DNA from: Candidatus Desulfofervidus auxilii
GTDB taxonomy: Bacteria > Desulfobacterota > Desulfofervidia > Desulfofervidales > Desulfofervidaceae
DNA: 64,000 nucleotides
Reading direction: 5' to 3'
NCBI RefSeq assembly: GCF_001577525.1
Contig: NZ_CP013015.1
Coordinates: 388,632 to 452,631 of the forward strand
The position numbers were made by a program, and so were the translations under genes. A model generated the notes under the pieces. That model had not been told where the DNA came from and made no database searches. It saw only the letters and a program-made list of their open reading frames with translations. Shown in pieces: positions 20,471 to 28,125 of this stretch (the first letter of the stretch is position 1; each line of letters starts with the position of its first letter).

Positions 20471-20640
20471 GGGGTCAAACCTACAAAATACAGTTAAGAA
20501 AATAGAAAACAGGAAACGGAAAATAGAAATTCCCATTTTCCATTTCCCAGTTCCCAGTTCCCATGTGCTAACATTCCAACGTGTTAACGTTTAAACGTGT
20601 GAACGTTCTAACGTGCAAACGTTCTAACGTCCTATTGTAA
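20471..20640 (+). mobile_element. Small inverted-repeat element with short-unit repeats (copy D)
   Basis: It starts with the 15-base end GGGGTCAAACCTACA at 20471-20485, then an AATAG/GGAAAAC heptamer block, a TTCCCAG heptamer block and an AACGTNNN octamer block. The far inverted repeat is degraded, ending near CCTATTGTAA. The near end coincides with the truncation of the secreted protein gene. The order of blocks matches copies at 21670, 27268 and 27993. Confidence 0.75.
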
Positions 20641-21669: not shown

Positions 21670-21832
21670 GGGGTCAAACCTACAAAATACATTTAAGAAA
21701 ATAGAAAACGGAAAACAGAAATTCCCAGTTCCCAATTCCCATTTCCCATTTCCCAATTCCCATTTCCAACATTCCAACGTGTTAACGTTTAAACGTGCAA
21801 ACGTTCTAACGTGCAAACGTTCTAACGTTTTA
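21670..21832 (+). mobile_element. Small inverted-repeat element with short-unit repeats (copy F)
   Basis: Left end GGGGTCAAACCTACA at 21670-21684, followed by the AGAAAATAG/GGAAAAC block, a long run of TTCCCAA/TTCCCAT heptamers and six AACGTNNN octamers. The right inverted repeat is not recognisable; the array instead runs into the 3' end of the gene on the opposite strand. Confidence 0.75.
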
Positions 21833-23544: not shown

Positions 23545-23993
23545 TAAACGTGCCAACGTGTTAACGTGCTAACGTTCTAACGTGGATAAAGAAGGAAAGG
23601 GAAACGGGAAACGGAAAATGGAAAACGGAAAACGGAAAACGGAAAACGGAAAATGGAAAATAGAAAACGGAAAATAGAAATTCCCATTTCCCAGTTCCCA
23701 GTTCCTAATTCCCAGTTCCTAATTCCCAGTTCCTAATTCCAATGTGCCAATTTGCAAACGTTCAGACGTTCTAACTTGCAAACTTTCTAACTTACAACTG
23801 TGTAATGCCTCAATCAAAAAGAAGACTAGAATTGACTAGAGACTAAGGACTAGGGACTAAGCACTAGGGACTAAGCACCAAGCACTAAGGACTAAGCACG
23901 TCTCATCGTTCCAACGTGCTAACGTGCAAACGTTCCAACGTGTAAACGTGCAAACGTGCAAACGTTCTAACGTAAATTGTAGGTTTGACCCCC
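23545..23993 (+). repeat. Large composite array of heptamer and octamer repeats (array G)
   Basis: In order: AACGTNNN octamers (23545-23584); GGAAAAC/GGAAAAT heptamers (23592-23672); TTCCCAG/TTCCTAA heptamers (23681-23740); mixed AACGTTC/AACTTGC units (23741-23798); GGACTAAGCACTA heptamers (23822-23898); octamers again (23899-23974). It ends in TGTAGGTTTGACCCC at 23979-23993, the same inverted-repeat end that bounds copies H and I. No coding sequence is seen in 23484-24218. Confidence 0.9.
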
Positions 23994-27192: not shown

Positions 27193-27267
27193 TAAAAAGA
27201 CCATACTCTATCTCCCATTCCAAAGTCCGCTATTATTCTAAAAGGTGAAATACACTTGCGGGTTATA

Positions 27268-27386
27268 GGGTCTAACCTACAATTTATACGTTTGCACGTT
27301 AGAACGTTAGCACATGGGAACTGGGAATTGGGAATTTCTATTTTCCGTTTTCTATTTTCTTAACTGTATTTTGTAGGTTTGACCCC
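27268..27386 (-). mobile_element. Complete small inverted-repeat element (copy H), 119 bases
   Basis: Bounded by GGGTCTAACCTACA (27268-27281) and TGTAGGTTTGACCCC (27372-27386), imperfect inverted repeats. Inside, in reverse orientation to copies D and F: an octamer block (complements of AACGTGCA), a GGGAACT/GGGAATT heptamer block, then TATTTTC/CGTTTTC heptamers and TTAACTGTATTT. No coding capacity. Confidence 0.85.
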
Positions 27387-27417
27387 AATCCCGCCAATTC
27401 CGGAACCAATTCCGGAA

Positions 27418-27445
27418 TTGACAAGTAATAAATTTTAAATATAAA
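27418..27445 (+). promoter_or_regulatory. Sigma-70-type promoter
   Basis: TTGACA at 27418-27423 and TATAAA at 27440-27445 with a 16-base spacer, about 60 bases upstream of the secreted protein gene at 27508 and just outside the border of element H. Confidence 0.65.
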
Positions 27446-27507
27446 AAAGAATAGTTTGGCAATGTCAAATGTTGGCATACAATCATTAAATTTAAAGGGA
27501 GGTTAAA

Positions 27508-27966
27508 ATGCGACCTTTAAAAGCAATGTTGGTTATAGGGATTATGGTTTTTTTCACTTGGGTTAGTGTGTCAACTGTGAATGCAGGAACCTATATTGGA
27601 GATTATTGTTGGCGGGGTGAAGTTACACATAATGGGGACACTGATACTGGCATTATTCAAGTTGCCGTTACAGATATGGGAAACGGCCATTATTTTCTAA
27701 ATGGAAAAGTTACTGAAGAAGGCGAGCCAACAATACAAGCTACACATGGCAATGCAGAGATAGCTGGTAATAAAGTGTATTTGACACTTAATGTTGCGCG
27801 GGCAGACCATGAGGAAATGTGTGCAGATACAATATATATAGTCCTAGATTGGCCCAGTCTTAATGGTACCTTTGAAGTTATTGGGATATGTTATGAATAT
27901 GATTCGCAAGAAATAGAAAGAGAACACGTTGGCCCTGGGACGGTAACTTTTATAACGTGTCCATGA
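27508..27966 (+). CDS. Secreted protein of unknown function
   Basis: 152 residues. AAGGGAGG precedes the ATG. The signal peptide is MRPLKAMLVIGIMVFFTWVS, with cleavage near VNA. The mature domain starts GTYIGDYCWRGEV and reads as beta-rich (GIIQVAVTDMGNGHYFLNGKV, GNKVYLTLNVARA) with cysteines near residues 34, 110, 127 and the C-terminus. Element I begins 26 bases after the stop. I do not recognise a family. Confidence 0.65.
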   Translation: MRPLKAMLVIGIMVFFTWVSVSTVNAGTYIGDYCWRGEVTHNGDTDTGIIQVAVTDMGNGHYFLNGKVTEEGEPTIQATHGNAEIAGNKVYLTLNVARADHEEMCADTIYIVLDWPSLNGTFEVIGICYEYDSQEIEREHVGPGTVTFITCP

Positions 27967-27992
27967 TTCAAAATTTAGAATTTAAGAATTTA

Positions 27993-28125
27993 GGGTCAAA
28001 CCTACAATTTATACGTTTGCACGTTAGAACGTTAGCACATGGGAACTGGGAAATGGGAATTGGAAATTTCTATTTTCTATTTTCCGTTTTCTATTTTCTT
28101 AACTGTATTTTGTAGGTTTGACCCC
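27993..28125 (-). mobile_element. Complete small inverted-repeat element (copy I), 133 bases
   Basis: Bounded by GGGTCAAACCTACA (27993-28006) and TGTAGGTTTGACCCC (28111-28125). Block order and orientation are as in copy H. The octamer core is identical; the heptamer region has one more GGGAAAT-type unit and one more TATTTTC unit, giving a 14-base difference in length. Confidence 0.87.

Follow-up and report, generated by a model that had tools for sequence, protein, structure and literature searches.

Within the window, that is, the 64,000-nucleotide stretch of the Candidatus Desulfofervidus auxilii genome analyzed here (positions 388632-452631 of a single contig of 2.54 Mb), two short sequences with inverted ends enclose arrays of 7- and 8-bp repeats, and the question they raise is what kind of element they represent, what moved them, and how the arrays came to lie inside. 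The initial annotation had described them as two complete copies with inverted ends and a shared block order, and this description holds, its coordinates being accurate to within one base: once the terminal A is counted, the left ends begin at 27267 and 27992. Both copies are read on the minus strand. Copy 1 (27267-27386, 120 bp) extends from an R-type end at 27372-27386 (minus strand; GGGGTCAAACCTACA, followed inward by AAATACAGTTAAG) to an L-type end at 27267-27281 (plus strand; AGGGTCTAACCTACA, followed inward by ATTTATACG), and copy 2 (27992-28125, 134 bp) from an R-type end at 28111-28125 (minus strand) to an L-type end at 27992-28006 (plus strand). The succession of octamer, GGGAANT heptamer and TATTTTC heptamer blocks is identical in the two, and their net difference of 14 bp amounts to two heptamers. 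Read from the R end, each copy consists of GGGGTCAAACCTACA-AAATACAGTTAAG, GAAAATA/GAAAACG heptamers, TTCCCAN heptamers, AACGTNNN octamers and AAATTG-TAGGTTTGACCCT, a content without coding capacity. Folded as single strands, copies 1 and 2 are predicted to form end-closed hairpins (z -4.0 and -5.4, respectively), in which one end pairs with the other, the single ends not being self-complementary by reading. The small gene lying between the copies (27508-27966, plus strand), with a signal peptide apparent by eye and no Pfam match, is probably a bystander.

A pair of this kind could derive from one local duplication (segmental, or through gene conversion) rather than from two insertions: it is the only complete pair seen, and its members, nearly identical and equally oriented, are separated by only about 600 bp. 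However, the sequences beyond the ends are unrelated on both sides of the two copies, save for a short A/T-rich bias, and the breakpoints fall exactly at the inverted ends; the two copies are not one duplicated 27-28 kb segment, because their outer flanks differ, and we consider a local duplication highly improbable. As for target duplications, which the initial annotation had suggested looking for, none is consistent: copy 1 has none, and copy 2 is bordered only by ATTT as a direct repeat of 4 bp, a sequence also in keeping with the GGAAWTT bias seen generally in the flanks of the ends in this genome.

Partial copies and solitary ends are far more numerous than the complete pair. In the window, the 15-mer end was matched nine times with at most three mismatches, against 1.4 matches expected, and none of 100 shuffles reached nine. 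The half copies previously noted are genuine and share the block order; two of them, both on the plus strand, possess the R end and lack the L end (20471-20636, with GGAAAAC heptamers, TTCCCAN heptamers and AACGTNNN octamers, and 21670-21832, with the same order of blocks), and a third (23545-23992, plus strand) carries octamer, GGAAAAC, TTCCCAN, GACTAAG and octamer arrays, with an L-type end at 23978-23992 and no R end. The genome was examined as stretches around matches, and the copies were surveyed in the loci fetched around the ends. The expectation of many matching ends genome-wide was borne out, the 15-base end TGTAGGTTTGACCCC occurring 56 times with at most two mismatches vs. three times for the reversed control; the search for paired ends returned these 56 single ends but, among the loci around them, no third copy with both ends beyond the two in the window. 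Twenty-one of the 56 lie within a larger repeat and three more share only its last bases; nine R and two L ends have arrays and unique flanks (both window copies included), 18 are without arrays, and three resemble chance matches in genes. The inward sequence differs constantly between R and L ends, as would be expected if they were the 5′ and 3′ termini of a single element. Some fragments with shared ends (L041, L043, L045, L046) carry a small ORF (like MIEYKKFVSPQA...).

In 38 relatives the 15-base end occurred at background level. The extended R end is present 64 times here (at most two mismatches, including ends split by an IS110-family element, discussed below), compared with 0-2 matches per genome in 394 others of the phylum. 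When a large genome collection was scanned for exact matches, this extended end turned up in six further bacteria, belonging to several phyla, and viral contigs contained no match to it.

A counterpart to these ends is found in the terminal-inverted-repeat-associated tyrosine transposases (TIRYTs), whose common end motif is GGGGWSAS (PMC3733652; PMC6006769). Compared with this motif, GGGGTCAA (R ends) and AGGGTCAA/T (L ends) fit at seven of eight positions, the eighth base departing, and at the L ends the first base too; position 8 is A here and C or G in the published motif, and A is also found there in the intact elements L185, L173, L229 and L295. A set of TIRYTs was assembled from matches to the RAYT model in the genomes of relatives, the loci being read individually, and at 80 loci in other genomes a Y1-type gene lies between inverted GGGGTCA-type ends, the 5′ end at a median distance of 53 bp upstream of the start codon and the 3′ end at one of 17 bp downstream of the stop. 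A target duplication score of at least 7 was reached by none of these 80 intact elements, and their ends show an A/T flank bias only, vs. the strong GGAAWTT bias of the ends in the genome studied here. The intact locus closest to the window ends (L162, 316 aa, Pfam Y1_Tnp) has GGGGTCAGACCTACA at both ends, each identical to the window ends at 14 of 15 positions, and the ends of L185 are identical to them at 13 and 14 of 15. At two loci of other genomes an extended-R-like end stands about 60 bp before a truncated TIRYT/RAYT-type gene start (L095, L070/L093; MARRPRIKKKDALYQL, MARQPRKW), and L070 is a gene-less end pair of about 120 bp. Judged by their sequence, the window ends match the TIRYT (HUH) type, a group of elements little studied since it was named, a full-text literature search for the term returning two papers.

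In the genome itself no TIRYT gene was found, the RAYT family model giving one weak match (6e-6), nor was a full-length ancestor of the miniature element. The link therefore rests on the end sequence and on other genomes, and the copies have the appearance of remnants of an HUH-type, non-autonomous element; since an autonomous TIRYT/TIRtron has its transposase gene in the element or in the genome, they are filed as a derivative only. The four Y1_Tnp matches in this genome have no such ends nearby, and its IS200-type Y1_Tnp genes were rejected as drivers for that reason.

The copies had initially been termed MITE-like, which is apt insofar as they are miniature, bounded by inverted repeats and non-coding, and finds no support in the classical DDE-type sense, in which they would be internally deleted insertion sequences of an IS family not seen here. 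Short length, inverted ends, intergenic position and the many solo or partial copies would all suit an ordinary DDE-type MITE, and so would the ATTT repeat at copy 2, but copy 1 is without a target duplication, the genome yielded no transposase gene or insertion sequence bearing these ends (no autonomous one among the loci around the 56 ends), and where near-identical ends flank intact genes in other genomes, those genes are TIRYTs. We regard this origin as very unlikely; a MITE of a DDE insertion sequence residing in the same genome was rejected, none having been found.

The reading that we favor, with a probability of roughly three in four (0.76), is that the two copies are non-autonomous miniatures of the TIRYT/TIRtron type, later captured by a second element, and that their ends were targeted by an IS110-family element. 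The similarity of the ends, the geometry of the end pairs, the failure to find an enzyme gene, the capture and the IS110 site are direct observations, and we infer both the movement of the window copies by a TIRYT and the route by which the arrays entered. The inverted GGGGTC ends are of the type that an HUH tyrosine transposase (Y1_Tnp, RAYT relative, subclass 2.1) would cut and join in single-stranded form, with the degenerate 7- and 8-bp arrays standing where the transposase gene would be. Such an enzyme may have cut both hairpin-paired ends as single-stranded DNA and moved the array-filled unit, which would have spread while a matching TIRYT was present, the enzyme being lost later. Copies minus the L end would have been taken into an element with AGGRCTWCGTCAAAG ends and their cargo multiplied, and an IS110-family element would have hit the remaining GGGGTC end in 20 copies.

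The element family is a known one; what is unusual is that it contains arrays and is nested with two further mobile elements. With the TIRYTs/TIRtrons (Di Nocera et al., 2013, PMC3733652; subclass 2.1 in PMC6006769) the copies share inverted GGGGWSA ends occurring singly and in pairs, the lack of target duplication and the end-to-gene geometry seen in other genomes, whereas they differ in the 7/8-bp arrays between the ends, in the A at the eighth base and in that no transposase gene was found. REPINs and BIMEs, i.e., REP doublets moved by RAYT and thought to be mobilized in trans by an HUH tyrosine transposase (PMC3116915; PMC2817692), are likewise short, non-autonomous inverted pairs forming a single-strand hairpin. 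Unlike REPs, however, the window ends have, by reading, neither the GTAG/GTGG head nor a palindrome within each end, their copy number is far lower, and no tyrosine transposase of the TIRYT kind was found in the genome.

The capturing element is the larger repeat mentioned above, inside which or at whose shared edge about 24 of the 56 ends are situated. It has inverted AGGRCTWCGTCAAAG ends and a length of 180-680 bp, and target duplications scoring at least 7 accompany 13 of 22 copies (mostly 9-14 bp) vs. 1.5% of mismatched flank pairs; this AGGRCTWCGTCAAAG-ended repeat (L007-L056, L220, L221) is a second non-autonomous family, itself mobile. Two of its short copies (L220 and L221) are without the GGGGTC insert, so that the second element most likely took up, and then multiplied, a TIRYT-type piece that carried arrays and lacked the L end. 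Most of the array-bearing copies were apparently spread by this element, which had swallowed the miniature one. An autonomous insertion sequence had also been considered for the AGGRCTWCGTCAAAG repeat, many copies of which measure about 2.1 kb, and was rejected, the extra length being an IS110-family element in the GGGGTC end; no transposase for the AGGRCTWCGTCAAAG family was found among the stretches read.

This IS110-family element (DEDD_Tnp_IS110 and Transposase_20) splits 20 further copies of the end at one identical place, GGGG/TC...TC/AAACC (slashes marking the junctions; L207-L215 among the 20 copies), the right junction having been counted and the left one read in a sample. The split ends fall into three sequence variants, each of which also occurs among unsplit ends, and sharing of this kind suggests that the IS110-family element targeted the GGGGTC end repeatedly; the alternative is that the second element copied a composite. 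Targeting of REPs is known from IS110-family elements (ISPpu9 type, PMC8450116), and the two cases are alike in that the insertion always occupies the same position of a repetitive transposon end, but the target here is a TIRYT-type end instead of a REP palindrome, with 20 copies in one genome. The genome offers in this respect a countable case of transposon ends that would have outlived their transposase, been captured by a second element and become a landing site for an IS110-family element.

The octamer arrays have a wider distribution than the ends. Among the 39 genomes searched, TTCCCAN heptamer arrays were confined to this one, and AACGTNNN octamer arrays were also found in genomes of the same family and the same order that are without the ends. 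Many heptamer and octamer arrays lie far from any such end, and a gene for a polysaccharide deacetylase contains an octamer array at matching positions in this genome (L219, 999-1086) and in another genus (L224, about 2856-2880), with different lengths. Given octamers without ends elsewhere, and inside the deacetylase gene in two genera, the octamer arrays are independent of the miniature element. The earlier proposal that the element spreads arrays is thereby narrowed: arrays do sit between its ends, but they are also present far from ends and in genomes without them, and most array-bearing copies were apparently spread by the second element. One might go further and take the arrays as the functional unit, i.e., slippage-grown regulatory or recombination sequences with the GGGGTC ends as incidental co-copied flanks, in keeping with their abundance without ends, their presence in other genera and their in-frame occurrence inside genes. 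Yet 18 of the 56 ends have unique flanks and no arrays, from which it follows that ends move or persist on their own, and in the window copies the unit stops precisely at the inverted ends, the flanks beyond being unrelated; we attach little probability to this view. For the miniatures of TIRYT type, the plain reading of the array content is a resident array that grew by slippage and ended up between two ends.

A more active role of the enzyme has also to be weighed, in which TIRYT transposases would themselves create short tandem arrays, nicking or re-joining at the GGGGTC end repeatedly copying the tip and/or the next flank bases; the element and its captors would then transport these arrays, and the 7- and 8-bp arrays observed here would be aged products. 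Tandem repeats abut 15 of 62 TIRYT ends vs. 3 of 88 intergenic controls in a first set, on which the tandem-repeat score threshold was set, and, with the threshold unchanged, 16 of 94 ends vs. 2 of 163 controls in a second set from the phylum of a Nitrospira genome (Fisher 3e-6); overall, in two phyla, 17-24% of TIRYT ends adjoin short tandem repeats vs. 1-3% of the intergenic controls. Often a unit spans the tip of the end and about 6-13 flanking bases, and such repeats are seen directly at the ends at L181, L185, L228, L237, L278, L282, L289 and other loci. REPs are known to be reiterated in tandem along with adjoining DNA (PMC3733652), and the repeats at TIRYT ends may be the same phenomenon. 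The excess at TIRYT ends is compatible with array creation and is no proof of it, and we rate the hypothesis as rather unlikely. Were the association causal, the 7-8 bp arrays found in many bacteria and usually credited to polymerase slippage could owe their origin to an enzyme.

Short tandem arrays of 7-8 bp in both intergenic and intragenic positions have been described as TAACTGA arrays (PMC4679880) and as the hepta- and octanucleotide families of Geobacter metallireducens (PMC2700814); unlike these, the window element has several arrays, in one set order, between its transposon ends. Arrays of GCTTG-type words adjoin GGGGTC ends in a Nitrospira genome (L069, 5200-5330 and 6060-6140), in a layout resembling that of the window. 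At the separate locus L075, CRISPR-like repeats (GTTTCAATCGTCCTCAGACTCTTACCATTAGTGCAAC) are found near an IS200-type gene. Within the window, a UDP-N-acetylglucosamine 2-epimerase gene (Epimerase_2, 920-2293) contains several degenerate arrays of the 7-bp type in frame, at about 1057-1108, 1349-1385, 1556-1610 and 1923-1957, translated for example as NLQLVTCNL.
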